32,873 nt of DNA from a virus, in IMG/VR virus record IMGVR_UViG_3300032308_000741, positions 1 to 32,873 of that record. One strand, given 5' to 3'. Below, in pieces: positions 6,614-19,957 of the stretch. The notes below the pieces were generated by a model. The model was not told where the DNA came from. It saw only the letters and a list, made by a program, of their open reading frames with translations, and did no database searches. Each line of letters begins with the position of its first letter. The first letter of the stretch is position 1. The position numbers and the translations under genes were made by a program.

Positions 6614-6619
6614 AAAAAA

Positions 6620-7230: not shown

Positions 7231-7630
7231 GAGGTTTGAAGGTTGTAGATTAAAGGCTTACAAATGTCCTGCAGCAATCTGGACTATAGGCTATGGAACA
7301 ACTCGTTACCCTGATGGAAAAGCAGTAAAGGAAGGCGAAGAAATAAGTTTATATCGTGCAGAATCATTACTAACGTATGACGTTAATAAGTTCGCTTCGC
7401 AAATAAAAGTAAACGTAAATCAAAATCAGTTTGATGCTTTAGTTTGCTTTGCTTATAATGTTGGAATAGGTGCTTTTAATGGAAGCACTTTAAAGAAAAT
7501 GGTTCTTGCTAATCCTGGAGATGAATTAATAAGAAATCAATTTATGAGATGGATAGCAAAAGGAAGTCCATATACTAAAGGATTAACTAATAGAAGAAAG
7601 GCTGAAGCCGATTTATATTTTAAGATATGA
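7190..7630 (+). CDS. Endolysin, T4-type lysozyme (GH24 muramidase)
   Basis: A 146-residue protein that hydrolyses the glycan strands of peptidoglycan. The family signature is clear: RFEGCRLKAY with catalytic Glu17 and WTIGYGTT with Thr32. The residue nine after Glu17 is Cys26, not Asp, giving the E-8aa-C-5aa-T triad seen in many phage lysozymes. C-terminal NQFDALVCFAYNVG (about 79-92) and GLTNRRKAEADLY complete the fold. No signal peptide, so release needs the holin. Its start lies inside the spanin gene, and its end overlaps the phosphoesterase start as ATGA. Confidence 0.93.
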   Translation: MSLKPSQNCINLIKRFEGCRLKAYKCPAAIWTIGYGTTRYPDGKAVKEGEEISLYRAESLLTYDVNKFASQIKVNVNQNQFDALVCFAYNVGIGAFNGSTLKKMVLANPGDELIRNQFMRWIAKGSPYTKGLTNRRKAEADLYFKI

Positions 7631-8604
7631 AACAAATAGACATTGTTAAGGAATATCGCAGAAAAAATATGGATATGCCTAACCTTAAACTTGCAAGGAT
7701 AATTTATAATGATAATCCTTTAATGTTTAGAAATATTGATAGTGTTAGAAGGCAATTAAGAAAAATTGAGAAAGGAAATTATGATTCTAAAAACAATGCA
7801 GAATTCTTTAGAACTGAACCAAGACCTTATAATCCTTACAAACTACCTGAATCTTCAGAATCAATCTACGAACCTTACATCATTAAAGGCTTCAGCAAAG
7901 TAGGTATTCTTTCAGATATTCATTTACCTTACCACAATATCGGTGCTTTAACCTGTGCTATTGATTTCTTAAAGAACGAGAAAATAGATGCTTTACTTTT
8001 AAATGGTGATACTATAGATTGTCATACTTTGAGCAGGTTTATGAAAGACCCAAAGAAAAGGGATTTTAAATATGAATTAGACACCTTAAAGGCTTTTATA
8101 GATGTCATTAAGAAGGAACTTAATTGCAAAATCTTTTTCAAGATAGGCAACCACGAAAATCGTTATGAGCATTTCCTTTATCAAAAGGCAGGTGAGTTAG
8201 TAGGGGTTGAAGAATTTCAGTTTTCAAATATCATTAAGGCACGTGCAGAAGGGATTGAAATAATTGAATCCAATAGGTATATGAAACTTAATGAACTAAA
8301 CGGCATACACGGACACGAATACATTGGTGGAATTTCTGCACCTGTCAATGTAGCGAGGGGACTTTATTTAAGAGGAAAGACATCTGCCTTTCAAGGTCAT
8401 AATCATTCTACAAGCGAACATAGTGAAACTGATATGAATGGAAAGATAACAACTACCTGGAGCATTGGATGTCTTTGCGAATTGCATCCTGAATATATGC
8501 CTTTAAATAAATGGAATTGGGGATGTGCAGTTGTCTATTTAGATAACAATGGAGTTGATTATCAATTCTTCAATAAGCGAATTTTTAACGGCAAAATACT
8601 TTAA
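7627..8604 (+). CDS. Calcineurin-like metallophosphoesterase
   Basis: A 325-residue protein with the full set of metallophosphoesterase motifs: D97-x-H99, GD-x2-D (127-131), GNHE (174-177), HGHE (228-231) and GHNH (257-260). These bind two metal ions and hydrolyse phosphate esters; the real substrate cannot be told. Residues 1-50 form a small helical domain (LARIIYNDNPLMFRNIDSVRRQLRKI), as in other phage members of this type. It is coupled to the endolysin by an ATGA overlap, so it is expressed late. Possible roles include nucleic-acid end processing or nucleotide turnover. The family call is secure, the role is not. Confidence 0.88.
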   Translation: MKQIDIVKEYRRKNMDMPNLKLARIIYNDNPLMFRNIDSVRRQLRKIEKGNYDSKNNAEFFRTEPRPYNPYKLPESSESIYEPYIIKGFSKVGILSDIHLPYHNIGALTCAIDFLKNEKIDALLLNGDTIDCHTLSRFMKDPKKRDFKYELDTLKAFIDVIKKELNCKIFFKIGNHENRYEHFLYQKAGELVGVEEFQFSNIIKARAEGIEIIESNRYMKLNELNGIHGHEYIGGISAPVNVARGLYLRGKTSAFQGHNHSTSEHSETDMNGKITTTWSIGCLCELHPEYMPLNKWNWGCAVVYLDNNGVDYQFFNKRIFNGKIL

Positions 8605-8639
8605 TCCATTTATGTAAGAACATACAAAAATAGAATCCT

Positions 8640-8909
8640 ATGAGTGAAGAAATAAAAGTAGAGCAAGAACCTACACCTGAAGAAATAAAGGAAATAGAAG
8701 AAACATTTGAGTTTGAATATACCACAAGGATGGACTATGTAAGTTGTGCTTACTATTCAATTTCTGCAGTAGAAGGAATTGATTTACTTTTGCTCACGAA
8801 GGATGAAGCACGAAAGATTAAGAAGATAATAAAGAAGGCAATAAGGATAATAGATTCGTGTATAAATGAAATGCACGATGAATTGTTTGAGGATGAAGAA
8901 GAAAATTAG
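8640..8909 (+). CDS. Acidic small protein of unknown function (89 aa)
   Basis: Very acidic at both ends (EEIKVEQEPTPEEIKEIEE and ELFEDEEEN) with a helical middle rich in I, K and D. No membrane segment and no recognised domain. It is the last gene before the strong terminator at 8960-8984, so it closes the structural/lysis transcription unit. The acid character would suit a DNA mimic or a protein-binding inhibitor, but that is only a guess. Confidence 0.6.
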   Translation: MSEEIKVEQEPTPEEIKEIEETFEFEYTTRMDYVSCAYYSISAVEGIDLLLLTKDEARKIKKIIKKAIRIIDSCINEMHDELFEDEEEN

Positions 8910-8959
8910 GTTTCTTGTTTTATAGGATTTGGTTTTTAGGATTTGTTTTTTAGATTGCG

Positions 8960-8984
8960 AGGGATGTTTCTACATCCCTTTTTT
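8960..8984 (+). terminator. Rho-independent terminator at the end of the late unit
   Basis: Perfect 8-bp stem 8960-8967 (agggatgt) with 8972-8979 (acatccct), tetraloop ttct, and six T's (8979-8984). It follows the 89-residue acidic gene and precedes the early promoter, so it is the boundary between late and early transcription. Confidence 0.88.
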
Positions 8985-9078
8985 AGTTATACATATATAT
9001 TTATTTATTTAATAACTATTGATTCTATTGAGTTTCAGCGTATCGGAAAAAAAACTTTAAAAAAAAGTTCAAAATAAT

Positions 9079-9110
9079 TTTGTTTTGTAATCCTAAAATA
9101 TATATCTTTG
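9079..9110 (+). promoter_or_regulatory. Bacteroidetes-type promoter for the early region
   Basis: TTTG at 9079-9082, a 20-bp spacer, and TATCTTTG at 9103-9110. This fits the known -33 TTTG / -7 TAnnTTTG consensus of Bacteroidetes vegetative promoters. The transcription start would be near 9116-9118, leaving a leader of about 35 bases before the first early gene at 9151. It sits just after the late terminator in a 241-bp non-coding gap. A 6-bp inverted repeat (9053-9058 / 9064-9069) lies just upstream and could be an operator. The rest of the gap shows nothing else I can name. Confidence 0.75.
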
Positions 9111-9150
9111 ATTTATCAATCAAAAACAAATAACCTTAAAACTAAAAACA

Positions 9151-9387
9151 ATGAAAGTAGCACCATTTACATTAAGAACAAAAGTAACTGCTAAAGAACA
9201 AAAGGAGCATAAAATTTATATTTTAAAATGCAAAATTATTGAGTGCAAAAATCAGATAGATTTTTTTACTGAAATTTTAAATAATCCAAAGGCAAGTGTA
9301 GGAATTCAACGCAAGATGTTATTTAATATTGAATCGCAGGAATTAGAAATATTAAAAATTAACGAGCAATTGAAAAATTTAATATAA
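9151..9387 (+). CDS. First early gene, unknown function (78 aa)
   Basis: The first gene after the early promoter. The 78-residue product is basic and helical, with a likely coiled coil in the second half (ESQELEILKINEQLKNLI) and two cysteines in a KCKIIECK pattern. No recognised family. First early genes of phages often encode small host-takeover proteins, which is a possibility here only from position. The start is preceded by the A-rich leader shared with other early genes. Confidence 0.55.
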   Translation: MKVAPFTLRTKVTAKEQKEHKIYILKCKIIECKNQIDFFTEILNNPKASVGIQRKMLFNIESQELEILKINEQLKNLI

Positions 9388-9440
9388 ATTAAATAGGGGT
9401 GCAGCATCCTATCAACTGCTTAAATCTAAAAACAAAACAA

Positions 9441-9524
9441 ATGAAAAAATCAACCACTTTAGCAATCATTATTCTTGCTAACCTTATCTTCGCTTACATT
9501 ATCTTTCAATTTCGTAATCTTTAA
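9441..9524 (+). CDS. Tiny membrane protein (27 aa)
   Basis: ATG at 9441 follows the recurrent early leader motif TTAAATCTAAAAACAA (9420-9435). The 27-residue product is one hydrophobic helix (about 6-22, TLAIIILANLIFAYIIF) between short polar ends. The leader match and spacing argue that it is translated. Function unknown; single-span early microproteins could act on host membrane proteins. Confidence 0.5.
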   Translation: MKKSTTLAIIILANLIFAYIIFQFRNL

Positions 9525-9538
9525 ATCTAAAAACAATG
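9521..9538 (+). promoter_or_regulatory. Recurrent early translation-start leader TTAAATCTAAAAACAATG
   Basis: An 18-base sequence ending in the start codon of the gene at 9536. It is identical at 9925-9942 (gene 9940), differs by one base at 9136-9153 (gene 9151), and 16 bases recur at 9420-9435 (gene 9441). Weaker versions precede 10809, 11399 and 15389. There is no Shine-Dalgarno site. Bacteroidetes ribosomes favour A-rich leaders, so this probably works as a shared initiation signal. Confidence 0.6.
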
Positions 9539-9922
9539 AACACAAAATTAAATTTTCACCAAGAAATTATTGAACACGCTTTAGCAGGGTTGTTAAGTAA
9601 TCCTGAAGGAGTTTATGGTTGCGATTTGCATCACGAGTTATTCAATATGGATTATTTTGTTATTGGATATTATAATGCAGAAAAATTTTTATCTGAATGG
9701 GGGGGTAGCTGGAAAGCTATTCATAGAGTAAAAAATTATGAACAGGAAATGTTTGGGGAAGTATCAACTGACCTTTCAGATTGCGAAAAAGTAGCAAATA
9801 TGATAGCTTATATAGAAGGTGAATTGCTTCTAATGGAATGTTCTACACTTGAAAGGTGTTGGGATAAAAGATTAACTGAAGAAGATATTGCTAATATAAT
9901 AGATGAAATCAAATCATTTTAA
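9536..9922 (+). CDS. Early protein of unknown function (128 aa)
   Basis: A soluble acidic protein, mostly helical, with a Gly/Tyr-rich turn near GVYGCDLHHELF (about 25-37) and a helix around SDCEKVANMIAYIEGELLL. It distantly resembles small early phage proteins of the DUF7222 type, but I am not sure. No membrane segment. The perfect early leader motif precedes its ATG. It contains a run of six G's within coding sequence (9699-9704), unusual for this AT-rich DNA. Confidence 0.6.
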   Translation: MNTKLNFHQEIIEHALAGLLSNPEGVYGCDLHHELFNMDYFVIGYYNAEKFLSEWGGSWKAIHRVKNYEQEMFGEVSTDLSDCEKVANMIAYIEGELLLMECSTLERCWDKRLTEEDIANIIDEIKSF

Positions 9923-9939
9923 CCTTAAATCTAAAAACA

Positions 9940-10083
9940 ATGACACAAAAAACAGCCTTTGAATTATTAGTTGAAGCAATTGAAACTTCTTCAGCAACTA
10001 TTGAAGAAAAAATTAAAATGATTGAATGCTTTATGGACTACATAGAGTATAAATATCAACAAAACCTAAACGCAATCCGATGA
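9940..10083 (+). CDS. Small helical protein (47 aa)
   Basis: ATG at the end of an exact copy of the early leader motif. The 47 residues form one or two acidic amphipathic helices (AFELLVEAIETSSATIEEKI). It ends in an ATGA overlap with the next small gene. No recognised family. The leader motif and overlap are the main support for coding. Confidence 0.55.
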   Translation: MTQKTAFELLVEAIETSSATIEEKIKMIECFMDYIEYKYQQNLNAIR

Positions 10084-10196
10084 ACCTATTAGCATTTTCA
10101 ATCTATTGGATAATTATTATTTCGTTTTTAATTTACCTAAATGATAGACAAACAAAAAGATTCAAAAAAGAACTTGAAGAAGAAGAAATTCAGTAA
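10080..10196 (+). CDS. Tiny membrane protein (38 aa)
   Basis: ATGA overlap with the preceding gene. One hydrophobic helix (about 4-20, LAFSIYWIIIISFLIYL) followed by a charged cytoplasmic-type tail (NDRQTKRFKKELEEEEIQ). The layout, helix first and charged tail after, indicates an inner-membrane protein. Unknown role. Confidence 0.5.
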   Translation: MNLLAFSIYWIIIISFLIYLNDRQTKRFKKELEEEEIQ

Positions 10197-10247
10197 ATTA
10201 GTAGAACTTTTAACAACCAAATACGTAAAAACAAAACCTTTAAAACA

Positions 10248-10805
10248 ATGCAACAATCAAACACCATCAGCGAATTAGCAAAAGCACTTGTTCTATTCCA
10301 CGTTAAAGTGGACACCATTAAGAAGGATGCAAAGAATCCTTTCTTTAAATCAACCTACGCTTCCCTTCCTAACATCCTGGAAGGAATCAATGAACCTTTA
10401 ATTGAATCAGGCTTATCAGTTGCTCAATTTCCTTCAGGCGAGAATGGTTTAACTTCTATCTTGCTTCACGAATCAGGAGAATTTATTTCAGCAGAATATC
10501 AAATGAGACCTGTAAAGGATGACCCACAAGGAAGGGGTTCTTGTATAACCTATCAACGCCGTTATGCTTTAGCTTCTATTCTTGGGTTGAACATTGATGA
10601 AGACGATGACGGAAACACGGCTACCTTCGGTGGTAAGAATCCACAAGAAGCAGAAGATAACACTAAACAATGGTTGAACAAAGGAACTGACCTTTTCAAC
10701 AAAGCAAAGGCTAAACTTGATTCAGGCGAAACTACAATGGCTAAAATCAAAGCAGCCTTCAAAGTATCTAAAGAAGTAGAAACATTATTAACATCTAAAA
10801 ACTAA
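10248..10805 (+). CDS. ERF-family single-strand annealing recombinase
   Basis: A 185-residue ERF superfamily protein. Diagnostic blocks are KNPFFKSTYASLPNILE (29-45), the middle LLHESGEF, PQGRGSCITYQRRYALASILG (93-113) and the acidic DEDDDGN (118-123). These proteins bind single-stranded DNA and anneal complementary strands in phage recombination and in repair of replication ends. The family also occurs with RecT and Redbeta in similar operons. It is followed after three bases by the gene at 10809, probably its partner. The C-terminal 60 residues are a charged, helical linker and tail. Role in genome circularisation or concatemer formation is inferred. Confidence 0.92.
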   Translation: MQQSNTISELAKALVLFHVKVDTIKKDAKNPFFKSTYASLPNILEGINEPLIESGLSVAQFPSGENGLTSILLHESGEFISAEYQMRPVKDDPQGRGSCITYQRRYALASILGLNIDEDDDGNTATFGGKNPQEAEDNTKQWLNKGTDLFNKAKAKLDSGETTMAKIKAAFKVSKEVETLLTSKN

Positions 10806-10808
10806 ACT

Positions 10809-11270
10809 ATGTTACCACAAATTTCAGCAGGGTTAACTAAAAACCAAATCAAAATCATTGCTCAAAATTCTATTAACGAATTAATGGATTCAGGTAGAAT
10901 CCTGGAAGCAGCAGAAGCACTTTCTATAATGGAGAAATTCATTGAAGAAATAAGAAGTTCAAAAGCCTTTACTGATTATGTTCGTGAAGAAGTAGCCAAG
11001 AATGGAAAAGAAATAACCAATTCTTCAGGTGCAAAGATTGAACTTGCAGAAGCAGGAACGAAGTACGATTTCAGCCAATGCCAAGACCCTATTCTTGCAC
11101 AATTACAAGCGAAGTTTGAAGGAGCAAAGGCAATGCTTGATGAAAGAAAGACCTATCTTAAAAGCATTCCTTCTGCAGGTGTAGAGGTTTTAATTGAAGA
11201 TGAAGTAGTAAAACTATACCCACCGAGCAAAACAAGTTCTTCAACCTATAAAATAACTTTAGCAAAATGA
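10809..11270 (+). CDS. Recombination-associated protein of unknown function (153 aa)
   Basis: Directly after the ERF gene. Residues 1-70 are helical (RILEAAEALSIMEKFIEEI), then a short beta segment with YDFSQCQDP (about 89-97), and a helix with ERKTYLKSIP (about 116-125). I have seen this YDFS...LKSIP layout in small proteins next to annealing proteins of Bacteroidetes phages, without known function. A partner of the ERF protein, such as a nuclease inhibitor or single-strand-binding helper, is possible but unproven. ATGA overlap links it to the next small gene. Confidence 0.6.
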   Translation: MLPQISAGLTKNQIKIIAQNSINELMDSGRILEAAEALSIMEKFIEEIRSSKAFTDYVREEVAKNGKEITNSSGAKIELAEAGTKYDFSQCQDPILAQLQAKFEGAKAMLDERKTYLKSIPSAGVEVLIEDEVVKLYPPSKTSSSTYKITLAK

Positions 11271-11386
11271 TGGGCATCTTATTTGTTTTATTAGTTGTTA
11301 CGATAGTTTCAATTATATGGGTAAATAGCATTGATAAAATGAACAAAGATTTCCCTGATTATGACGGAGAAGATTTCTTAAACTAA
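11267..11386 (+). CDS. Tiny membrane protein (39 aa)
   Basis: ATGA overlap with the previous stop. Hydrophobic helix at about 3-19 (GILFVLLVVTIVSIIWV) followed by an acidic tail (DFPDYDGEDFLN). Predicted single-span inner-membrane protein. No recognised family. Confidence 0.5.
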   Translation: MMGILFVLLVVTIVSIIWVNSIDKMNKDFPDYDGEDFLN

Positions 11387-11398
11387 AAATAAAATACA

Positions 11399-11617
11399 AT
11401 GGAAAACAAATTAGAAAACCACATCCTGCAAATCAAATTTGAGCAGTATGTTAGAACTTCAACAAGGCGAGAAGAATGTCACGGCTACCATTATTTTACT
11501 GATGTAGATGTTAAGAATGTAATTGAGTCAATTACGATTGATGTTAATGGAGTTGAAATAGACATTACTGATAGATTAACCGAAATTGAAAAAGAACAAA
11601 TAAGCGAAAACCTTTAA
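11399..11617 (+). CDS. Small protein of unknown function (72 aa)
   Basis: Acidic soluble protein, with a likely beta-rich second half (ESITIDVNGVEIDITDRL). It contains TSTRREECHGYHYF in the middle. Preceded by an A-rich leader (aaataaaatacaATG). No known domain. It sits in the run of small early genes between recombination and replication functions. Confidence 0.5.
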   Translation: MENKLENHILQIKFEQYVRTSTRREECHGYHYFTDVDVKNVIESITIDVNGVEIDITDRLTEIEKEQISENL

Positions 11618-11620
11618 ACT

Positions 11621-11758
11621 ATGATTTGGCTAAACTTCAGTACCTGGTACAAATACAAAATCAAAAGAACTAAAAATTATGTTTGGTATTGGGAACGCTT
11701 CTATAAGAATGGTCATTTATGGACACCTTTAATAATCTTTAAAATCAAAAAATTATGA
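11621..11758 (+). CDS. Small basic aromatic protein (45 aa)
   Basis: Three bases after the previous stop, and overlapping the next start as ATGA. The 45 residues are rich in W, Y, F and K (STWYKYKIKRTKNYVWYW) with a hydrophobic end (TPLIIFKI). High basic and aromatic content suggests binding to nucleic acid or to a membrane surface. No family recognised. Confidence 0.5.
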   Translation: MIWLNFSTWYKYKIKRTKNYVWYWERFYKNGHLWTPLIIFKIKKL

Positions 11759-11994
11759 AACTTTATTTAGCATTAGAAAACGGAATGTGCCTAAATTATA
11801 TTAATTTGCACAACTCACAAACAATGAGATTAAGAGATACACCTTTCACGAGTCAATCGTTAAGGTTTGAAAGTATTTTTTATGTAGAGAAAGACGTTCC
11901 TAAATTAAAGGCACTTCATCCTGCAGCAGAGATAATGAAATTCAATAGCCATTACCATTTAAACGTTTATAAAAATGCTATGGAACTATCTTAA
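11755..11994 (+). CDS. Small protein of unknown function (79 aa)
   Basis: Coupled to the previous gene by an ATGA overlap and to the next by a 20-base overlap. Soluble, mixed alpha/beta impression, with two leucine/asparagine-rich stretches (MCLNYINLHNSQ and KLKALHPAAEIM). No recognised motif. Confidence 0.5.
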   Translation: MKLYLALENGMCLNYINLHNSQTMRLRDTPFTSQSLRFESIFYVEKDVPKLKALHPAAEIMKFNSHYHLNVYKNAMELS

Positions 11995-12208
11995 AAATGA
12001 TGTTATCGGTTCTTATAGTAAAATCATTTACGGAGAACAAGGTGACAAGGTAGCAATAATAGGCAGATTAAATGAGATGCTTAAAGTCCTGCACGAAAAC
12101 GGACAAGTATTTTTTATTAAAGAAGATGGAATTTCAATAGATTATATAACCAAAAAACAAAACAATGGAACAACAACAAAAACAAAATCAAGAAGTAAAA
12201 GAATTTAA
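11975..12208 (+). CDS. Small protein of unknown function (77 aa)
   Basis: Starts inside the preceding gene and overlaps the next by 44 bases. N-terminal two thirds look globular (YGEQGDKVAIIGRLNEMLKVL); the C-terminal end is rich in K, T, N and R because it shares bases with the following A-rich leader. No family recognised. The true end is certain; the low-complexity tail may be unimportant. Confidence 0.45.
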   Translation: MLWNYLKNDVIGSYSKIIYGEQGDKVAIIGRLNEMLKVLHENGQVFFIKEDGISIDYITKKQNNGTTTKTKSRSKRI

Positions 12209-12332
12209 ACCTAAACCCTGGTTGAAGAAACCTGAAGAAGAAAAGAAAGTTCAAGGTTACTATTATGTAAAAGCCAAGTTCAAAAAGATTGCTCACGAAG
12301 AAATAGAAAAACTAACACAACAATGGAAATAA
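12165..12332 (+). CDS. Small charged protein (55 aa)
   Basis: ATG preceded by an A-rich leader (aaaacaaaacaATG). The 55 residues start with a Gln-rich stretch (MEQQQKQNQE), then KPWLKKPEEEKK and a possible helix (KKIAHEEIEKLTQQW). Overlaps the next gene by 10 bases. No recognised domain. Confidence 0.45.
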   Translation: MEQQQKQNQEVKEFKPKPWLKKPEEEKKVQGYYYVKAKFKKIAHEEIEKLTQQWK

Positions 12333-12538
12333 AAGAACGCAACAAAACAATAGTTGAACTTTATGATTTAGGAGTTAGCTATGAAGAAATAGGTAAAAGA
12401 TTCAACCTTAAAGCGAATAGCGTTTGTGATATTATTCTAAAAGTAAAATCTAAATACTTTGCACCTGGAATCTTTAATGTTCACGATTATGATTGTTGGA
12501 TAATGCCTACAAAAAAATCTTATGAATTTAACAACTAA
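12323..12538 (+). CDS. Small helix-turn-helix protein
   Basis: A 71-residue protein. Residues about 4-40 form a helix-turn-helix of the sigma region 4/resolvase-like kind (IVELYDLGVSYEEIGKRFNL, then KANSVCDIILKVK), so it should bind DNA. The C-terminal 25 residues carry several Asp, Tyr and Trp (FNVHDYDCWIMP). It may be a transcription regulator of the early region or a small replication factor. It overlaps the next gene by 17 bases. No operator can be assigned. Confidence 0.6.
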   Translation: MEIKERNKTIVELYDLGVSYEEIGKRFNLKANSVCDIILKVKSKYFAPGIFNVHDYDCWIMPTKKSYEFNN

Positions 12539-12824
12539 AGACAAAGTAAAAAGCCTTTTAATTGACTACCCACATTTAAGGGATTCAGACGAAAGATTAA
12601 TAGCTACTTATTGGATGAGAGAAGTAGGAAGCAAAGACGCTTTGGATTATATGTCTGCTACAAAATTTCTTACAAATTTCGTAGAAGGTGCTTACACAAG
12701 TCCTGAATCAATTCGTAGAATGAGACAAAAGATTCAAGAAGAAGATGAATCATTAAGGGGTAAATCCTATTACAAAAGACAAAAAATAGAACAAGATGTT
12801 AGAAGCAAAATTAGAAGTTTGTAA
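12522..12824 (+). CDS. Conserved phage protein of unknown function (100 aa)
   Basis: A soluble helical protein: LLIDYPHLRDSDERLIATYW in the first third, and SPESIRRMRQKIQEEDESLRGKSY in the last. I recognise this pattern from small genes near replication modules in many phages and prophages, without known function. It overlaps the DnaA-like gene by 29 bases, which suggests related timing and perhaps a replication or regulation role. Confidence 0.6.
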   Translation: MNLTTKDKVKSLLIDYPHLRDSDERLIATYWMREVGSKDALDYMSATKFLTNFVEGAYTSPESIRRMRQKIQEEDESLRGKSYYKRQKIEQDVRSKIRSL

Positions 12825-13188
12825 TCCGTGTGTTGAGCATCCTTCGTACTTTAAAATCAATCCTATTAGTAAGCGTTTAAATTCAAATGAAATATTAGAA
12901 TCTATTTCTAAATTCTTTGAAATACCAGTAACTGAAATAGTAGGTAAGAAAAGAACTGCTAAAATTGCTGAAGCAAGAATGATTGCTGCCTATGTTTTAA
13001 GAAAGGATAGGTATTTAAGTTTAGGCTTAAAGCACATTGGGAATATTTTAGGTGGCAAAGACCATACTTCAGTAATGCACCACGTTAAAAGAATTGGTGA
13101 ATTGATTGACATTGAACCTGAATTTAGAGTTAAGATTAAAGAAGTATTCCTGGAAACATACGGAAGTACAACTTATTTTTACGAGTGA
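12796..13188 (+). CDS. Stand-alone DnaA domain IV (DNA-binding) protein
   Basis: A 130-residue protein whose residues about 33-118 match the DNA-binding domain of the replication initiator DnaA: the helix ILESISKFFEIPVTEIVG, the basic loop KKRT (51-54), the long helix KIAEARMIAAYVLRKD, and the DnaA signature GGKDHTSVMHHVKRIGELI (86-104). The AAA+ ATPase part of DnaA is absent; only about 30 extra residues precede the domain. It should bind DnaA-box-like DNA. It lies just upstream of the initiator gene with iterons (13536), so it may direct or compete with host DnaA at an origin. Whether it activates phage or represses host replication cannot be told. Confidence 0.85.
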   Translation: MLEAKLEVCNPCVEHPSYFKINPISKRLNSNEILESISKFFEIPVTEIVGKKRTAKIAEARMIAAYVLRKDRYLSLGLKHIGNILGGKDHTSVMHHVKRIGELIDIEPEFRVKIKEVFLETYGSTTYFYE

Positions 13189-13212
13189 TTTTTTCCCTAT
13201 TGAAAATTGATT

Positions 13213-13220
13213 TATATTTG
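13213..13220 (+). promoter_or_regulatory. Possible -7 promoter box (TATATTTG)
   Basis: Exact match to TAnnTTTG in the 132-bp gap after the DnaA-like gene. No clear TTTG is present 19-21 bases upstream, only a T run at 13189-13194, so the -33 part is weak. A start about six bases downstream (near 13226) would place the first hairpin of the leader at the very 5' end of the RNA. Confidence 0.4.
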
Positions 13221-13226
13221 TTCAAC

Positions 13227-13310
13227 GATTTGTAAATGAAGAGCGAACCATTTACAAATTTATTTTAGAGAAATCTAAATAAATGCCCTGCAGTTCGCTC
13301 CTGTGGGGCT
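13227..13310 (+). ncRNA. Structured leader RNA with two kissing hairpins
   Basis: Hairpin 1: 11 perfect pairs (13228-13238 atttgtaaatg with 13249-13259 catttacaaat), extendable by a G-U pair, with a 10-nt loop aagagcgaac. Hairpin 2: 9 pairs including two G-U (13285-13293 with 13301-13309) with a 7-nt loop ttcgctc (13294-13300). All seven bases of loop 2 are complementary to 13241-13247 in loop 1, so the two loops can kiss. The second hairpin is followed by ctattttatttt and then the start codon at 13321. It may be an attenuator or translation switch for the next gene, or a small RNA of about 90 bases. I do not recognise a known RNA family. Confidence 0.55.
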
Positions 13311-13324
13311 ATTTTATTTTATGA
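13283..13324 (+). CDS. Possible 13-codon leader peptide
   Basis: ATG at 13283 follows aaatctaaataa, which resembles the phage's early leader motif. The frame reads MPCSSLLWGYFIL and stops at 13322-13324, giving an ATGA overlap with the next gene. It runs through hairpin 2 of the leader RNA, so ribosomes on it would unfold that hairpin. Could be chance; supported only by leader match and overlap. Confidence 0.3.
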   Translation: MPCSSLLWGYFIL

Positions 13325-13533
13325 CAAAAATTAAATTTATTTGCGAACAAGATGATTGTGATTATTTAGAAGTTATTAAATGTGATAATTCAATAGATAT
13401 TTTTATTACTAAAAAAATTTCTGAAGAAAATTGCAATATTGAAGAATCTTTATCAGTTAATTTAAATATTGATGATGTTAAATTATTAATTTATTTATTG
13501 AATAATTTAGTTAGTAAAATAGAAAAAAATTGA
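13321..13533 (+). CDS. Small acidic protein of unknown function (70 aa)
   Basis: ATG at 13321 is chosen over an in-frame GTG at 13303, which lies inside hairpin 2 of the leader. The 70 residues are acidic with several cysteines in the first half (FICEQDDCDYLEVIKCD) and a helical end (VKLLIYLLNNLVSKIEKN). Base composition is very AT-rich even for this genome. No recognised family. Expression may be controlled by the structured leader just upstream. Confidence 0.55.
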   Translation: MTKIKFICEQDDCDYLEVIKCDNSIDIFITKKISEENCNIEESLSVNLNIDDVKLLIYLLNNLVSKIEKN

Positions 13534-13535
13534 AA

Positions 13536-14348
13536 ATGAGTTACATTAAATTAGACAGGGATTTACTTTATAGTTATTGCTTCGCTAATCCTAATCATTT
13601 AAAAATTTGGATTTGGTTGTTGATTAAAGCTAACTTTAAGAATGCCTTTATTCCTATTAATTTAGGTAAAGGATATAAGACAATTGAAATAAAAAGAGGT
13701 CAATTAATCTATGGTAGAAACAAGGCAGAAGATGAACTTGGATTGAATGGAAGTTTAATTGATAGGACTTTAAAAGAATTTGAGAATTTAGGGCAAATTA
13801 AACGTGAAGTGAGCAGCCATTATTCAGTCATAACTATTTGTAATTATGATAGTTATCAAAGCAAATCGGATGAACTTGAACAGGCTATGAACAACCAATG
13901 CACAACCAATGCACAACAAATGAACAACACGTGCGCAACAAATGAACAACACGTGAACATATATAAAGAAGAATTAGAAGAAAAAGAAAGTAAAGAAGAA
14001 AGAGAAGTTAGTAGTGCGATTTGTTTAAAAAATTCAAATTTGTTTAGGAAGCCTAAAGTTCCAAGCCTGGAAGAAGTCCAAATGAATTTTGTTAGTTGCG
14101 GTGGAAATAAAGAAATGGCTGAAGCATTTTTCAACAAGCATAGTGCAGTTGATTGGTTTATGAAAGGTTCACCGATAACAAACTATAAAACTTTAATACC
14201 TAATTTTATTAAAATTTATAACGAAAATGAATCAAAATCAAAATCTAATAAAACAAGACAACAAACTACCAACGAATCACTTGAGTACATCCAAGCAAAA
14301 GGTGCTGAACTCTATGCCAAGCTATATGGCTCCAATAATGAAGGCTAA
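13536..14348 (+). CDS. Replication initiator / replisome organiser, O-like
   Basis: A 270-residue protein starting MSYIKLDRDLL; the ATG at 13536 is preferred to a TTG at 13530. Residues 1-110 are a winged-helix domain typical of phage replication organisers: NHLKIWIWLLIKANF, GQLIYGRNKAEDELG, a recognition-helix region with LIDRTLKEFENLGQI, and SVITICNYDSYQ. A low-complexity linker (about 119-160, rich in N, Q, T, E and K) follows, then a C-terminal helical part like those that recruit helicase or primase. The linker DNA holds six 11-bp iterons, as the origin lies within gene O of phage lambda. It presumably binds its own gene's iterons and loads the host helicase. Confidence 0.75.
   Translation: MSYIKLDRDLLYSYCFANPNHLKIWIWLLIKANFKNAFIPINLGKGYKTIEIKRGQLIYGRNKAEDELGLNGSLIDRTLKEFENLGQIKREVSSHYSVITICNYDSYQSKSDELEQAMNNQCTTNAQQMNNTCATNEQHVNIYKEELEEKESKEEREVSSAICLKNSNLFRKPKVPSLEEVQMNFVSCGGNKEMAEAFFNKHSAVDWFMKGSPITNYKTLIPNFIKIYNENESKSKSNKTRQQTTNESLEYIQAKGAELYAKLYGSNNEG
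13891..13956 (+). repeat. Six tandem 11-bp iterons: candidate replication origin
   Basis: Units ACAACCAATGC (twice), ACAACAAATGA, ACAACACGTGC, GCAACAAATGA and ACAACACGTGA, head to tail with no gaps, 11 bp being about one helical turn. Units 3-4 and 5-6 form a nearly exact 22-bp repeat. A purine- and AT-rich stretch follows (13957-14010), as a melting region would. The array lies in the linker-coding part of the O-like gene, the same arrangement as the lambda origin. Origin function is inference. Confidence 0.7.
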
Positions 14349-15048
14349 AGAATCTGGAATTCCATTCAAACAAATGACACCTGAAGAATTAAAACTTTCT
14401 GCTTATTCGCTAATCATAAAAATGAACGTAATCACAGGTTGGAACATTTTAGACAAAAATTTGCTTGATATTTTTGCAGAACAACTTTCTTTAAAACTTC
14501 AGGAATCTTATTCATTCCTAAATACAAATGAGATAGAATATGCCTTCAGAAACTTTACTATCAATGATTGGGGTAAAAACTTTAATCTAACGGCCTTAGA
14601 TGACGTTTTAAAGCCTTATCTTACTTTAAGAAGGGAATTACACACAAACGAAACAAAAGCCAAAATTTCGCTTCCAATGGCTTCTAATGAAATATCACAA
14701 AAAGAAATGATTCAAGACGTTGAAGAATATCTTGCTAAAAATACTTTAGAGATTAATTTAATACCTATCTTTATTTATGAATATGCTGAAAAGTTAGGAT
14801 ATATAAATTTGAGTAAAGAAGAAAAGCTAAAGATATATGATGAAGCTAAAAGTTATCGGCAAAGGGAATTAAGTTCAAACGCAAAATCTAATAGGATTGA
14901 TGACATTATGGCTAATAATATGTTTTTTGAAATGGTTAAAAAGAATGAGATAACCGATGAAGAAAAATTCAGGTTGCAAAATTTGAGCAAAAAAATAGCA
15001 TTTAAAAAATTTTATGAGAGCAAAAAAAATAGACCTGCCGAAACTTAA
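14227..15048 (+). CDS. Replication-module protein, helicase-loader position (273 aa)
   Basis: A 273-residue helical protein after the initiator. Homologous-looking parts are SGIPFKQMTPEELKLSAYSLI (about 43-63) and NEIEYAFRNFTINDWGKNFNL (about 100-120), a pattern I associate with replication-region genes of Bacteroidetes phages that have no known biochemistry. By position it could be a helicase loader, though no Walker A motif is present. The first ATG (14227) overlaps the initiator by 122 bases; starts at 14314, 14326 or 14338 would give a shorter overlap, and the first 29 residues are low in complexity, so the start is uncertain. Confidence 0.6.
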   Translation: MNQNQNLIKQDNKLPTNHLSTSKQKVLNSMPSYMAPIMKAKESGIPFKQMTPEELKLSAYSLIIKMNVITGWNILDKNLLDIFAEQLSLKLQESYSFLNTNEIEYAFRNFTINDWGKNFNLTALDDVLKPYLTLRRELHTNETKAKISLPMASNEISQKEMIQDVEEYLAKNTLEINLIPIFIYEYAEKLGYINLSKEEKLKIYDEAKSYRQRELSSNAKSNRIDDIMANNMFFEMVKKNEITDEEKFRLQNLSKKIAFKKFYESKKNRPAET

Positions 15049-15376
15049 AAAGAAAGCACAAGAAGTTTTTAATAAATGGATTCGTGAAAGGGATAAGAAT
15101 TTAGGGTGCATTTCTTGTGGTGGTAAAATAGACCACGCAGGACATTACTTCAGTTCAGGTCATTATTCACTACTAACGTTTGACGAAACTAATGTCAATG
15201 GTCAATGTTTAAGGTGTAATAACTTCCTTCACGGAAACTTGATTCATTACAGGATGGGATTAGTTGAAAGGTATGGAGATGCTAAAGTTTATGAATTAGA
15301 AAGTAAGAGCAGGAACAATATTAAGAAATGGGATAGGGTAGAACTTGAAGATATAATAACCAAATACAAAATCTAA
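15014..15376 (+). CDS. ninG: NinG/Rap-like recombination endonuclease
   Basis: A 120-residue protein with the lambda NinG (Rap) pattern: helix RERDKNLGCISCGGKIDHAGHYFSSGH-type block with Cys32, Cys35, His41 and His44, then FDETNVNGQCLRCNNFLHGN with Cys65 and Cys68, then YRMGLVERYG. NinG binds and cuts branched recombination intermediates such as D-loops and Holliday junctions. The zinc-binding cysteines and histidines are all present. It is shorter than lambda NinG (204 residues), keeping mainly the conserved core. It overlaps the previous gene by 35 bases and pairs functionally with the ERF protein. Confidence 0.85.
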   Translation: MRAKKIDLPKLKKKAQEVFNKWIRERDKNLGCISCGGKIDHAGHYFSSGHYSLLTFDETNVNGQCLRCNNFLHGNLIHYRMGLVERYGDAKVYELESKSRNNIKKWDRVELEDIITKYKI

Positions 15377-15388
15377 AACAATCTAAAA

Positions 15389-16372
15389 ATGAATGTACTT
15401 TCTTTATTTGATGGCATGAGCTGCGGTCAACAGGCATTGCAAAGATGCGGATTTAAGGTTGACAATTACTTTGCAAGTGAGATTGATAAATATGCTATTA
15501 AAGTTACAATGTCAAACTATCCAAACACACAGCAACTTGGATCTGTTGTTGATGTGAATGGTTATGATTTACCAAAGATTGACTTACTTATTGGAGGCAG
15601 TCCGTGCCAGTCATTCTCATTTGCCGGCAAACGCAAAGGGATGTCAACAAAGGATGAGCAGGAAATACTTATACTTGGTCATTACCTACAACTTAAAAAA
15701 GAGGGATTTGAGTTTGAGGGGCAATCTTATTTGTTTTGGGAATATATGCGACTACTAAATGAGTTAAGGTCAAAAAATCCTGATGTGTTTTTTTTGCTTG
15801 AGAATGTTGAGATGGGTGAGAAATGGGAGAAGGTTTTGAGTAAAGCAATTGGTGTCAATGGTATACACATCAATTCAGCTTTGGTGTCAGCACAAAATCG
15901 CAAACGCATATACTGGACAAATATTGGTATGCAACCATCAGGATTGTTTGGTGATATGCAAAGCATAATTGAGCAACCAAGAGACAAAGGGATATTGTTA
16001 AAGGATGTGCTTGAGGATGAGGTTGGTGAGAAGTATTTTTTGAGTGAAAAATCATATTGTTTGGATAATGGCAATACAAATGCGGTTGAGGTAATACCAA
16101 TGGACTACCGATATGATGAGGGATTTAGGCCGCGTGAGAATGGCAAAAGTCCTACATTGACAATTACCAATGACAGCAATAGTGCATCAGGTAAAGCATT
16201 GGCAAAAATCAATAACCGCATCCGCCGCCTAACACCAATTGAATGTGAGAGGTTGCAGACGGTAGCAGACAATTATACTTCATCAGTTTCAGATAGCCAA
16301 AGATATAAGATGCTTGGTAATGGATGGACTATTGATGTTATTTGTCACATTTTAAATTATTTAAAAAATTGA
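15389..16372 (+). CDS. C5 cytosine DNA methyltransferase
   Basis: A 327-residue methyltransferase that transfers a methyl group from S-adenosylmethionine to carbon 5 of cytosine. Motif I LSLFDGMSCGQQAL (4-17), motif IV GGSPCQSFSFAG (69-80) with catalytic Cys73, motif VI LENVEM (137-142), motif VIII QNRKRIYWTNI (169-179), and motifs IX-X (RRLTPIECERLQ; YKMLGNGWTIDVI) are all intact. The recognition part between VIII and IX is short. No restriction enzyme is nearby, so it is an orphan enzyme, probably shielding phage DNA. Its codon use differs from neighbours: many GAG and CGC codons where the rest uses GAA and AGA, which suggests recent transfer. Confidence 0.93.
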   Translation: MNVLSLFDGMSCGQQALQRCGFKVDNYFASEIDKYAIKVTMSNYPNTQQLGSVVDVNGYDLPKIDLLIGGSPCQSFSFAGKRKGMSTKDEQEILILGHYLQLKKEGFEFEGQSYLFWEYMRLLNELRSKNPDVFFLLENVEMGEKWEKVLSKAIGVNGIHINSALVSAQNRKRIYWTNIGMQPSGLFGDMQSIIEQPRDKGILLKDVLEDEVGEKYFLSEKSYCLDNGNTNAVEVIPMDYRYDEGFRPRENGKSPTLTITNDSNSASGKALAKINNRIRRLTPIECERLQTVADNYTSSVSDSQRYKMLGNGWTIDVICHILNYLKN

Positions 16373-16373
16373 A

Positions 16374-16381
16374 TACATTTG
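16374..16381 (+). promoter_or_regulatory. Possible -7 promoter box (TACATTTG) before the sigma-like gene
   Basis: Exact TAnnTTTG match two bases after the methyltransferase stop. It ends five bases before the ATG at 16387, so a transcript from it would have almost no leader. The -33 side is weak (T's near 16350-16353). Tentative. Confidence 0.3.
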
Positions 16382-16386
16382 TATAA

Positions 16387-16902
16387 ATGACCAATTGTCA
16401 TAAATACATTTTAGAGATTTACCAATCTAAAAGGGTTACCGAAATCCTAAAGAAAATTTACCCCCAAGATTTAAGGGATGACCTGAAACAAGAACTTGCA
16501 CTTACTTTGTTCAATATGGACTGCAAGAAAATAGTAAATCTGAATTTCAAGAATGAACTTCTTTCCTATTCAATCAAAACATTGTGGTTAATGGCAACTT
16601 CTTCTACAAGTCCTTTCTTCTACAAGTACAAAAAAAATGATTTAGACAAAGCTATTAAGTACCTGGAAAGCCAACAAGGAAAAGCACTTGGAGAAAAGGA
16701 AGCAAACATTGCTAAAAAGATATTGCTAAAAAAGATTGACAAATCAGCAAATGATGCACACGAAGCTATAATCTTTAACAAATATGTTGAACTTAATTCT
16801 TGTGTAGAGGTTGCAAAGTATTTCAACATTCCAAAAGACCACGTTTATAGTGTAGTTAGGAATTGCAAAGAACAATTAAAAAAAGCTATCAATAATGATT
16901 AG
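16387..16902 (+). CDS. Phage sigma-70-like factor
   Basis: A 171-residue protein with the layout of a small sigma factor. Residues about 24-90 resemble region 2: DLRDDLKQELALTLF, then LLSYSIKTLWLMATSSTSPFFYKYKK. Residues about 130-165 resemble region 4, a helix-turn-helix (SCVEVAKYFNIPKDHVYSVVRN) followed by a basic helix. It would bind host RNA polymerase and direct it to phage promoters, probably those of the packaging and structural genes that follow. Region 2 is weak, so another DNA-binding role is possible. It overlaps the next gene by eight bases. Confidence 0.65.
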   Translation: MTNCHKYILEIYQSKRVTEILKKIYPQDLRDDLKQELALTLFNMDCKKIVNLNFKNELLSYSIKTLWLMATSSTSPFFYKYKKNDLDKAIKYLESQQGKALGEKEANIAKKILLKKIDKSANDAHEAIIFNKYVELNSCVEVAKYFNIPKDHVYSVVRNCKEQLKKAINND

Positions 16903-17134
16903 TAACATTTTAGCAGCGTTCTTATTTAGTTATTATTTTGTGAACATAGCAGGGATTCCGAATGCAGTAAAGAAAGGATTTTCAATGATGCCTCATCAAA
17001 GAATAAAGCCTTTTGATTGTGTAACTTGTTTATCGGTTTGGTCTGCAGTTGCTTTGTATTTCTTACCTTCTGAACTATCTAATTTTTTAACAATCATTTT
17101 CGGTGCAGGATTCATCGGAAGCAAAATCAAATAA
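16895..17134 (+). CDS. Small membrane protein with a CxxC motif (79 aa)
   Basis: Two hydrophobic segments, about 4-20 (NILAAFLFSYYFVNIAG) and 50-74 (SAVALYFLPSEL, then FLTIIFGAGFIG), flank a polar loop with KPFDCVTCLSVW (39-50). The cysteine pair and following Trp recall DUF1360-like membrane proteins. It may be an integral inner-membrane protein with a metal-binding or redox pair. The function is unknown. Confidence 0.6.
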   Translation: MISNILAAFLFSYYFVNIAGIPNAVKKGFSMMPHQRIKPFDCVTCLSVWSAVALYFLPSELSNFLTIIFGAGFIGSKIK

Positions 17135-17136
17135 CA

Positions 17137-17352
17137 ATGACATCAATAGAATTTCTATTTAAAGAACTATGGGAAACTCCAAAAGATAAATTTGAATGGT
17201 GCTTTATATTAAATAAAGCCAAAGAAATGCACAACAAAGAAATAGAAATATCAGATGAAGAAATAAAGAAAGCCGCCAACAATCCCAATAATGATGGATA
17301 TTGTTTTCAAGAAGGTGCAAGATGGTATCGTGAACAATTAAAACAAATATAA
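17137..17352 (+). CDS. Small protein of unknown function (71 aa)
   Basis: Two bases after the previous stop and one-base overlap with the next start. A charged helical protein (ELWETPKDKFEWCFILNKAKEM) with a C-terminal stretch YCFQEGARWYREQL. No known family; no membrane segment. Operon position is the main clue. Confidence 0.55.
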   Translation: MTSIEFLFKELWETPKDKFEWCFILNKAKEMHNKEIEISDEEIKKAANNPNNDGYCFQEGARWYREQLKQI

Positions 17353-17552
17353 TGGTTAAAATAACTGACATACTGGATAAGATGCTTATTGAATTTAATG
17401 CTTCAGATAATAGCGAATTTATAATGAGTGAAGCCAACGTAATAAAACTATCTGAAGAACTTGGAGTTCCCGATTCAGTAGTAATAGATTACAAAGGAAT
17501 GATTATAACTGCAATGGAAGGATGCGATGAATTCAAAATTTACCTTCGTTAA
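17352..17552 (+). CDS. Small acidic protein of unknown function (66 aa)
   Basis: ATG overlaps the previous stop by one base. An acidic helical protein; KLSEELGVPDSVVIDYKGMI in the middle looks like a short helix-turn-strand. No recognised domain. It ends 25 bases before the glycosyltransferase gene. Confidence 0.5.
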   Translation: MVKITDILDKMLIEFNASDNSEFIMSEANVIKLSEELGVPDSVVIDYKGMIITAMEGCDEFKIYLR

Positions 17553-17577
17553 TTAAACAAGAGTAAAAAATACACTT

Positions 17578-18588
17578 ATGAAAATATTAGGATTAGGTGG
17601 TAGAATGTCAGGTTGTACTTTTCACAGGGTTACGCTTCCTTTGGCTTATATGAATGGAATCAAAGGAATGGTTACTGATATTCCTACCTATGAGATTTTA
17701 GAACAAGGATGGGATATTATCTTCTATAACAGGCTTTCTGCTTTAGATGCTGATTGGGTTGAAGTCAAAAAGCAAATGAATGTAAAGATAGTTATGGATA
17801 TGGATGACGATTGGGTTCTTCCACCGAACCATATGAACTATGAATCCTATCTTGAAAAGAAACCTATAATAGAAAATAACTTAAGCGAAGCACACTTAAT
17901 AACTTGCACCAATGAAAAACTTGCTGAAAAGATTTATCCGTTCAATCCAAATGTCTTGGTTATTCCTAACGCTATACCTTACGGACATCATCAGTTTACG
18001 GATGCAAAAAAAGAAGATGAAAGGATAAGGATATTTTGGGCAGGTGGATGTACGCATCAACACGACCTTGAAATACTTAAATACCCACTTCAAAGATTAA
18101 AACCATTCAGCGATAAAATTAAAATGGTTTTAGGTGGATATACTGATTCAGACCCTTATTCAAAATACATTTGGGATAAGATGTTCAATTCATTTACTTG
18201 TAATGGTCAACTGCCTTGGACTAAATTAGGTGGACTTGAACCTATAAATTATATGGGTTTATATGAGTACGCAGATATTATGCTTGTGCCTTTAGAGAAT
18301 TCAGAATGGCATTCCTGCAAGTCAAACCTTAAACTATTAGAAGCAGCAGCAAAGAAAGTTCCTGTAATAGTTTCAAATGTAGAACCTTATTCAAGGGATA
18401 AAGATGCTCCTGTTTTTTGGGTGAATAGCCAAAAGGATTGGTACATACATTTAAAAGATTTAATTTTGAATCCGAATAAACGATTAGAATATGGCGAGAA
18501 AATCCACGAATGGGCAAAGTCAAAGTATAACCTCATTGACATCAACGAAGGAAGAAAAGCCGCATTTGACAATCTTGTCAAAGCATAA
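17578..18588 (+). CDS. Glycosyltransferase, GT4-like (GT-B fold)
   Basis: A 336-residue protein. The first half is a Rossmann-like domain starting MKILGLGGRMSGCTFHRV, with the acidic turn VMDMDDDWVLP (72-82) seen in phage-borne glycosyltransferases. The second half carries IFWAGG (152-157) and the group-1 signature around SNLKLLEAAAKKVPVIVSN (249-267), where Glu255 corresponds to the sugar-nucleotide-binding acid of GT4 enzymes. It should move a sugar from a nucleotide donor to an unknown acceptor. With the next three genes it forms a likely sugar-modification cassette. The target may be virion protein, host surface glycan or DNA. Confidence 0.82.
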   Translation: MKILGLGGRMSGCTFHRVTLPLAYMNGIKGMVTDIPTYEILEQGWDIIFYNRLSALDADWVEVKKQMNVKIVMDMDDDWVLPPNHMNYESYLEKKPIIENNLSEAHLITCTNEKLAEKIYPFNPNVLVIPNAIPYGHHQFTDAKKEDERIRIFWAGGCTHQHDLEILKYPLQRLKPFSDKIKMVLGGYTDSDPYSKYIWDKMFNSFTCNGQLPWTKLGGLEPINYMGLYEYADIMLVPLENSEWHSCKSNLKLLEAAAKKVPVIVSNVEPYSRDKDAPVFWVNSQKDWYIHLKDLILNPNKRLEYGEKIHEWAKSKYNLIDINEGRKAAFDNLVKA

Positions 18589-18607
18589 GCACTACTATGA
18601 TTTTTAT

Positions 18608-18772
18608 ATGAGAACAGGCGAAGTAGTTAATTTTTGGCATCACGTTCAAGAGGAAATACTAAACGCTTACAAGGTAGAGTTTCCACATTATCACTACCAA
18701 AGAACTTGTCCTGTTTGTGTAGCAGAATTTTTAGTTAGAGTTTATACTTGGTACGAAAAACAAATACAATGA
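18608..18772 (+). CDS. Small conserved phage protein with a CxxC pair (54 aa)
   Basis: The open frame extends upstream through a TTG at 18575 to an ATG at 18491, but that part overlaps the glycosyltransferase gene and looks like its shadow. I take ATG 18608 as a conservative start; TTG 18575 is possible because the residues HKHYYDFYMRTGEV read naturally. The product has a conserved-looking FPHYHYQRTCPVCVAEFL segment and RVYTWYEK at the end, a pattern I have seen in small phage proteins. Possibly binds zinc with a partner. ATGA overlap with the next gene. Confidence 0.55.
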   Translation: MRTGEVVNFWHHVQEEILNAYKVEFPHYHYQRTCPVCVAEFLVRVYTWYEKQIQ

Positions 18773-19449
18773 ACGAATTTTTCCATTCAGGAGCAACAGG
18801 TGACATAATATTTTCACTACCTACAATAAAAGCAATGGGTGGTGGGAAGTTATATATTACAAACTTTGACAAGCAAAGGTCTGAATCTATAAAAAGATTA
18901 ATTGAAGTTCAGCCTTACATAACTGAAGTAGAAATAAGGGATGGTTGGAGTCCTGGATATGACCTTAACCGATTCAGAGATTACGCTTCACACAATAACA
19001 ATTTAGTTGAAGCACATTTCAGAGGTCAGAATATACCTATAGACCCAACGTGGAAAGAAGGATGGTTAACTTTACCTGAACCTAACTTTGAACTATTCCC
19101 TACTAAAAAATATTCAGTAATTAACAGAACAACAAACTACGCAGACCCAAATTTTAATTGGGCAAAAGAAGTTGAATATCTTAAAACAATTTCGGATGAA
19201 GTTTACTTTTTAGGTTACTTTAAGGAGTGGCAGTTATTTAATAATATTTTCGGAACTGATATAAACTTTGTAGATTTAGATTTCCTTGAAGGTGCTTACT
19301 TCATAAAGAACGCAGTAATGTTTTCAGGTTGCTATTCTTGTTGGTCAACTATAGCGATGGGATTAGGATTAACTTATAGATTAGAACAAGCACCTGGACA
19401 TACCTGTTCTTCATTATTAGAACCAAGAGAAACAATTATAAATGTATAG
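18769..19449 (+). CDS. Heptosyltransferase-like protein (GT9-like)
   Basis: A 226-residue protein from the ATG at 18769, which overlaps the previous stop; an upstream TTG is less likely. It opens with FFHSGATGDIIFSLPTIKAMGGG (4-26), the glycine-rich donor-side loop typical of GT9 ADP-heptose:LPS heptosyltransferases. It has YFLGYF and FSGCYSCWSTIAMGLG (about 186-201), matching the S-x-x-x-H/AMG site of that family. It is shorter than bacterial heptosyltransferases (about 320-350 residues), as phage members often are. It probably acts with the GT4-like enzyme at 17578. Activity is unproven. Confidence 0.68.
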   Translation: MNEFFHSGATGDIIFSLPTIKAMGGGKLYITNFDKQRSESIKRLIEVQPYITEVEIRDGWSPGYDLNRFRDYASHNNNLVEAHFRGQNIPIDPTWKEGWLTLPEPNFELFPTKKYSVINRTTNYADPNFNWAKEVEYLKTISDEVYFLGYFKEWQLFNNIFGTDINFVDLDFLEGAYFIKNAVMFSGCYSCWSTIAMGLGLTYRLEQAPGHTCSSLLEPRETIINV

Positions 19450-19957
19450 CCAAGCAAGACAGGATGAGTTTGTTCTTCATATGATGAACGGCAAAGTAGG
19501 GGAATATTTAGAAGTAGGTGCTTCGCATCCTATTGACATAAACAATACTTTCCTTTTAGAGCAGCACGGATGGACAGGTTTAAGTATAGATATAGACGAT
19601 TCCTGCAAACAAGTATGGCAAGAGAAACGAAAGAATCCTTTAATTATTGCAGATGCTTTAACCTTTGATTATCCACAAAAGGAAAGAATAGATTACCTTC
19701 AAATAGATGTAGACCCATCAGAAGTAAGTTTCAAAGCACTTCTTCAGATACTTAAAAGCAAAACAAGATTTTCAATAATAACCTACGAAACCGATGCTTA
19801 CGCTGATATGACCTATGTTCAACCAAGTAGGCAGTTATTACAAAGCGAAGGTTACAAACTTATTTATCCTGATGTTCTTTGTGGCTTCGGTCCATTTGAA
19901 GATTGGTATATTGATGAATCAGTAATTAATGCAGAACTTTTTAAAACATTTAAATGA
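19442..19957 (+). CDS. FkbM-family methyltransferase
   Basis: A 171-residue protein with the S-adenosylmethionine-binding start of FkbM enzymes: QARQDEFVLHMM, then GEYLEVGASHPIDINNT (17-33) and GWTGLSIDID (42-51), followed by IDYLQIDVD (about 81-89). These methylate oxygen atoms, often on sugars of surface glycans. It overlaps the GT9-like gene by eight bases, so a sugar added by the transferases may be methylated here. The next gene starts four bases inside its end. Family call is good, substrate unknown. Confidence 0.78.
   Translation: MYSQARQDEFVLHMMNGKVGEYLEVGASHPIDINNTFLLEQHGWTGLSIDIDDSCKQVWQEKRKNPLIIADALTFDYPQKERIDYLQIDVDPSEVSFKALLQILKSKTRFSIITYETDAYADMTYVQPSRQLLQSEGYKLIYPDVLCGFGPFEDWYIDESVINAELFKTFK

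Follow-up and report, generated by a model that had tools for sequence, protein, structure and literature searches.

A leader of about 95 nt in front of the replication operon of a phage carries two hairpins whose loops are complementary to each other, and in its relatives the two loops change together. It was analyzed in a viral record of 32.9 kb (the window, that is, the whole stretch of 32,873 nucleotides), which has a G+C content of 29% around the element and carries phage genes for portal, endolysin, Erf, a DnaD-like loader, NinG, methyltransferases and terminase. The element had been noticed in a first-pass annotation; the observation is real and stronger than first stated. The element is probably a cis-acting kissing-loop leader, or attenuator, of the replication operon, in which kissing of the loops would lower expression past the second hairpin. 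Comparison of relatives shows the two hairpins, the predicted loop-loop pairing, the layout running from promoter box to start codon and the linkage to a DnaA-HTH gene. We infer termination at the second hairpin, a kissing interaction that lowers rather than raises expression, and pairing that takes place mainly in cis.

Both hairpins were found where they had been placed, at 13227-13310. Hairpin 1 (H1, 13227-13260, + strand) has a 12-pair stem made of 11 Watson-Crick pairs and one G-U (5' arm 13227-13238, 3' arm 13249-13260), supported by folding and by compensatory stem changes across families. Its 10-nt loop AAGAGCGAAC (13239-13248) reads AA-GAGCGAA-C, the central 7-mer GAGCGAA occupying 13241-13247. 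Hairpin 2 (H2, 13285-13309, + strand), detected by folding and by a scan for terminator-like sites, has a 9-pair stem (arms 13285-13293 and 13301-13309) closing a loop that consists entirely of the 7-mer TTCGCTC (13294-13300). The original claim that all seven bases of loop 2 pair with loop 1 is correct: GAGCGAA is the reverse complement of loop 2 and co-varies with it. The 8-mers GAGCGAAC/GTTCGCTC are complementary too, the eighth base in H2 being the closing base of its own stem. Between H1 and H2, folding gives a small middle hairpin, TTTAGA-GAAA-TCTAAA (13264-13279, + strand), which sequence comparison showed to be weaker in the second stem family. The element folded better than 200 of 200 shuffles (z -4.16), and the full architecture, present once in the window, was seen in none of 60 first-order Markov windows of equal length. 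Neither 7-mer had any further occurrence in the window.

The first relatives were obtained by scanning for two loop words, which returned close relatives along with a further group that has the same loops on different stems; relatives with other loops were reached via the neighbouring proteins. This gave 54 distinct elements, or 241 loci when overlapping fetches of identical contigs are counted. The count started from the ten 7-mers already known and accepted perfect matches only, so that other loop types would escape it. The ten types are GAGCGAA, GGACAAG, GGACGAA, GTACGAA, CTGCGAA, CTACGAA, AGTCGAG, AGTCCAG, GTAGAAG and ATAGTAG, and each of them faces its own reverse complement in loop 2. 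The stems fall into five families (ATTTGTAAATG; ACACATTA/ACACATAG; and those of L381, L383 and L384), with GAGCGAA and GTACGAA common to both main families. With a covariance model, 22 of the 23 records searched each gave a single true element; the element of the remaining record has diverged stems and was recovered by the loop scan. Loop-word matches in G-C-rich contigs (e.g. L003, L009 and L017) were without the architecture and were taken as chance or coding sequence. Neither the INPHARED phages nor the PLSDB plasmids contained a relative of the leader, the search giving four weak unrelated matches only, and no cultured relative came up; in addition, no phage record matched the family-2 DnaA-HTH protein, and the DnaD-like protein matched distant phage records only. 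A DnaA-C scan of genome contigs matched mostly host dnaA genes and has no bearing on prophages.

Covariation was scored for the two stems and the loop-loop helix in three alignments, two within single stem families (A2 and A3) and one with 30 elements from two stem families (A4). Over the whole structure, 99.7% (A2), 98.9% (A3) and 96.5% (A4) of the cells were paired, compared to 29-48% over the three alignments (33-42% in A4) when the partners were slid by 1-3 columns. For the kissing helix the values were 100%, 99.7% and 100%, with double changes at 4/7, 5/7 and 5/7 of its pairs, respectively, and zero one-sided changes such as G-C to G-U in any of the three. Both stems contain double changes together with G-U pairs, as in RNA. 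A shuffle control ignores relatedness, whereas the slide control and the recurrence of loop switches in different stem families are independent of it. The evidence for complementarity comes from these alignments and from an independent positional reading of the loops; the seeded count of 54 is no such evidence because a perfect match was required of known 7-mers. The H2 of some GAGCGAA elements was read from A3, the position-based reading being unreliable there. The check proposed at the outset, covariation in relatives, thus gave loops that change together in ten pairs and five stem families, with compensatory changes in the stems. Loss of complementarity in relatives was also looked for: region and complementarity were kept, and the positional reading gave a sole true mismatch, in L226 (585-664, minus strand), where CTACGAA faces TTCGCAG (6/7, a single A-C). 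This mismatched pair lies exactly between two common loop types and is possibly a half-switched intermediate, or else a chimeric contig or an assembly error.

A TAnnTTTG box before and a start codon after the element had been reported, and both are present: TATATTTG (13213-13220, + strand) is a putative Bacteroidota-type -7 promoter box, from whose position transcription is predicted to start near 13226, and the start codon lies at 13321. A TAnnTTTG-like box stands 6-15 nt 5' of H1 in 54/54 elements. Bacteroidota sigma promoters combine TAnnTTTG at -7 with a TTG about 19-21 nt upstream; a TTG exactly 19 nt upstream of the box was found in 19/54 elements, and the window has T-rich sequence at that place. 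The carriers are uncultured phages, probably of Bacteroidota hosts, to judge by promoter type and base composition only. Downstream, an ORF starts 6-15 nt 3' of H2 in all 54 elements, and the 12 nt 3' of H2 contain at least 7 T in every one. The distance between loops is 40-46 nt; loop 1 is 10 nt long (NN-7mer-N) in the inspected elements and loop 2 exactly 7 nt.

The sequence after H2 suggests a signal for termination rather than an ordinary ribosome site. The T-tract TATTTTATTTT (13310-13320, + strand), noted from T counts, connects H2 to the start codon, and T makes up 75% of the 12 nt before 13321, whereas the 42 other gene starts of the window have on average 28% T and 56% A; it is from this difference in T content that the tract is read as a termination signal. 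H2 has the most G-C pairs among the terminator-like sites of the + strand (bases 1-20000), and its sequence combines a G-C-rich stem with an immediately following T-run, so that H2 and the T-tract look like a predicted intrinsic terminator. A second terminator-like hairpin (8959-8980, + strand; 9 pairs followed by TTTTAG) lies about 100 nt before a promoter-like TTG-N-TAnnTTTG match at 9080.

Directly upstream of the element lies the gene for a 130-aa protein with a DnaA C-terminal HTH domain (12796-13188, + strand; Pfam PF08299, E=5.6e-19), and a relative of it lies before the element in every case in which the upstream gene was inspected. Conversely, the element is absent from L375, L378-L380 and L385-L387, which have a DnaD relative and no DnaA-HTH gene in the inspected stretch. 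The claim that the element precedes a replication initiator held in part: a replication operon does follow, but its first gene is a 70-aa ORF to which no function is assigned (13321-13533, + strand; ORF call, no match in Pfam or PHROG), and its second gene encodes a DnaD-like helicase loader (13536-14348, + strand; phrog_2514, E=4.1e-25). The first gene 3' of the leader varies among phages (DnaD-type, DUF proteins, HNH, GIY-YIG, small proteins of about 63-82 aa), and behind a constant layout this variation indicates that promoter and leader behave as one fixed cassette before exchangeable genes. In family-1 phages with near-identical flanks the small protein after the leader is strongly divergent, and in the second stem family other genes replace it, HNH or GIY-YIG endonucleases among them. 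In one relative that carries DnaD and lacks a DnaA-HTH gene, another kind of structured leader (L075 2775-2925, on the contig of L371) is followed by a small ORF and then DnaD; this leader contains two long complementary pairs that cross each other (GCTAAAGATT/AATCTTTAGC and GGGAAGTCCTTGTTG/CAACAAAGGCTTCCC) and then TTAAATTTTATTATG, the crossing pairs forming a possible pseudoknot. Elsewhere in the window lies the gene of a 399-aa protein (19954-21153) that matches DNA methyltransferase families along most of the sequence and ParB-like partition/nuclease families towards the N-terminus.

The proposed attenuator would work as follows. Transcription would start just before H1, which would fold at the extreme 5' end of the RNA and present its 7-mer. 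H2 would fold next and present the complementary 7-mer, after which the T-tract would reach the start codon 6-15 nt on. The loops would then kiss intramolecularly through 7 Watson-Crick pairs with both stems intact, locking a compact closed form at the junction of terminator and start codon and giving less expression past H2; release or bypass of the lock would allow read-through and translation of the replication genes. The direction of this regulation is a guess, which the sequence does not display. A stabilised H2 would be the more natural outcome, since kissing is confined to bases of the loops and does not disturb the stem. The constant placement of the element, 6-15 nt ahead of a start codon, speaks for a cis leader rather than for an independent small RNA, and a strong hairpin at that distance could also act on translation alone.

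The rate at which the loops change was analyzed on a tree of the upstream gene from 114 second-family phages among the matches listed, the contig collection not being a random sample. For the seven kissing columns the tree required 46, 40, 47, 0, 19, 0 and 29 changes, with the same pattern in loop 2, compared to 6-21 in the variable columns of the H1 stem, up to 31 in columns of the H2 stem, and a mean of 3.3 with a maximum of 37 over the 446 columns of the upstream gene. The top kissing sites thus exceed every site of either stem and of the upstream gene. Loop type required 57 changes on this tree, versus at least 63 (mean 67.5) in all of 30 label shuffles, and pairs of phages with 98-99% identical upstream sequence have different loop types. 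Within the region the kissing sites change fastest, and they are nearly uncoupled from the tree of the neighbouring gene, a pattern that looks like frequent exchange combined with selection for diversity.

A purely structural leader, with loop pairs subject to neutral drift and to shuffling by recombination and with a diversity that has no function of its own, seems rather unlikely. Pairing demands complementarity alone, the first downstream gene is modular and recombination is evident, since those nearly identical upstream sequences are followed by different loops and H2 stems. Against it stand the speed of the top kissing sites and the comparison between the window and L078, in which four coordinated changes in each loop are accompanied by one other different base in the leader; slow passage through intermediates also agrees poorly with strict Watson-Crick changes without G-U steps. 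Fast loop change is unexpected if cis pairing is the sole constraint, and trans pairing of same-type leaders would explain it.

Such a trans function, which we regard as possible but not probable, would involve a terminated leader of about 95 nt that accumulates as a small RNA, kisses nascent leaders with the same 7-mer and limits expression of the replication operon. The targets would be other genome copies or co-infecting phages, leading to incompatibility or superinfection interference, and different types would be mutually blind. The near-randomisation of loop type relative to the adjacent gene's tree and the speed of the kissing columns fit this proposal. Several types also occur at comparable frequency, with at least two types in 20/22 samples that yielded more than one contig, and cognate loop duplexes are predicted at -5.5 to -9.6 kcal/mol while most non-cognate ones are weaker than -5. 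On the other hand, types one base apart are predicted to cross-pair partly, and both partners lie within one molecule, so that cis pairing competes. Avoidance of the same type within samples was not seen (7/44 same-type pairs versus a shuffled mean of 8.8, P=0.33), nor was a trans target, the phages' own 7-mers not being enriched elsewhere in 21 genomes. Moreover, integrase (PF00589) and resolvase (PF00239) families were not found in the window and 23 related records (24 records of 30-35 kb, perhaps incomplete); the carriers look virulent on this ground, which makes lysogenic immunity unlikely. The broader proposal that virulent phages recognise themselves by RNA, with a hypervariable 7-base lock and its key in one leader, selected for diversity, and with same-type genomes restraining each other (copy-number control or superinfection interference) without a dedicated protein, is unlikely. 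Because the loops outpace all their surroundings, a second role in trans, in which same-type leaders of co-infecting phages interfere, is likely enough to test beside the preferred role in cis.

Could a phage protein read the loops instead? The 7-8-mers might be half-sites of an inverted repeat in DNA, bound by a replication or repressor protein such as the DnaA-HTH protein; the adjoining DnaA-C-domain gene is compatible with this, and strict Watson-Crick 7-mers fit a DNA palindrome as well. Such a site is nevertheless highly improbable. The 7-mers fall precisely within the two hairpin loops, both stems change in a compensatory manner with G-U pairs, near-identical DnaA-HTH proteins (98%) are accompanied by different 7-mers, and loop type is nearly independent of the DnaA-HTH gene tree. 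Furthermore, none of 53 protein clusters from 17 second-family genomes follows loop type (best permutation p 0.058), in a test of moderate power with five types and ORFs of at least 60 aa, and the presence or absence of no gene follows it in the 17 genomes. On the simplest interpretation, the two loops are partners of each other.

The architecture was compared with known RNAs. As had been stated, it belongs to no recognised family: the Rfam 15 covariance models gave no match in the window and none at gathering score among the elements, the best weak match (trpB RF04312, 26.6-27.1 bits versus a threshold of 59) reflecting a hairpin-plus-terminator resemblance. No published description was found in the open-access literature, searched mostly at title and abstract level. 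In the guanidine-IV riboswitch a kissing loop hinders or competes with the terminator stem and thereby turns transcription on (PMC11611296). Like this and other kissing-loop riboswitches, the element is a two-hairpin leader with a kissing loop and a terminator-like hairpin before a gene, a layout that could accommodate a ligand pocket or a protein-binding site formed by the loops. Its loops are hypervariable, however, and its kissing helix lies outside the terminator stem. A riboswitch of the guanidine-IV kind has a conserved ligand-binding core in the kissing loops, whereas 1/7 kissing positions is constant over the ten types, and loops, both stems and linker differ between families; together with the Rfam result, this makes a riboswitch or protein-binding leader very improbable.

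The element also resembles systems of replication control. In ColE1, sense and antisense RNAs from an overlapping gene pair, RNAI and RNAII, are complementary, and their loop-loop contacts set plasmid compatibility (PMC9458437), a precedent for action in trans. As in RNAI/RNAII and CopA/CopT, stem-loops are predicted to kiss, loop sequence would set the partner and the system is tied to replication. The ColE1 loops are 7 nt long, pair fully with intact stems and set specificity by their sequence; in the element, loop 2 has 7 nt, all of them complementary to bases of loop 1. Unlike in ColE1, both partners are in one short transcript from the same strand, complementarity covers just 7-8 nt, and the element is carried by phages. 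Among phage RNAs, the CI RNA of P4 and the c4 antisense RNA of P1/P7 act in trans and keep the prophage or plasmid state. The element shares with them short complementary segments in a phage leader upstream of replication genes, which would set specificity, and differs in that no integrase or resolvase family was found in its carriers and in that hairpin layout, hosts and sequence are unrelated. The put antitermination RNA of HK022, which acts by binding RNA polymerase, also opens a phage early transcript with two hairpins, but the element conserves loop complementarity rather than loop or stem sequence. The phage-encoded GOLLD and ROOL RNAs also contain kissing loops, intermolecular ones being known (PMC12286853); they are much longer, lie near tRNA islands and form multimeric cages, unlike the element, whose roughly 95 nt immediately precede an ORF.

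Leaders with kissing loops and control by antisense RNAs are already known kinds of regulation; to our knowledge, a single leader with both halves of a hypervariable pair is a new form among them. It is a compact RNA element that is missing from Rfam, with very strong covariation for the kissing loop, placed at a likely control point of phage replication, and coordinated loop switches occur between otherwise near-identical leaders. These matched but varying loops suggest a built-in lock-and-key RNA switch, and the element supplies ready-made RNA switch pairs. Natural, hypervariable and largely orthogonal loop pairs are also what incompatibility typing in phages would be expected to look like: the pattern suggests that the loops act like specificity alleles and that RNAs of the same type could pair in trans.
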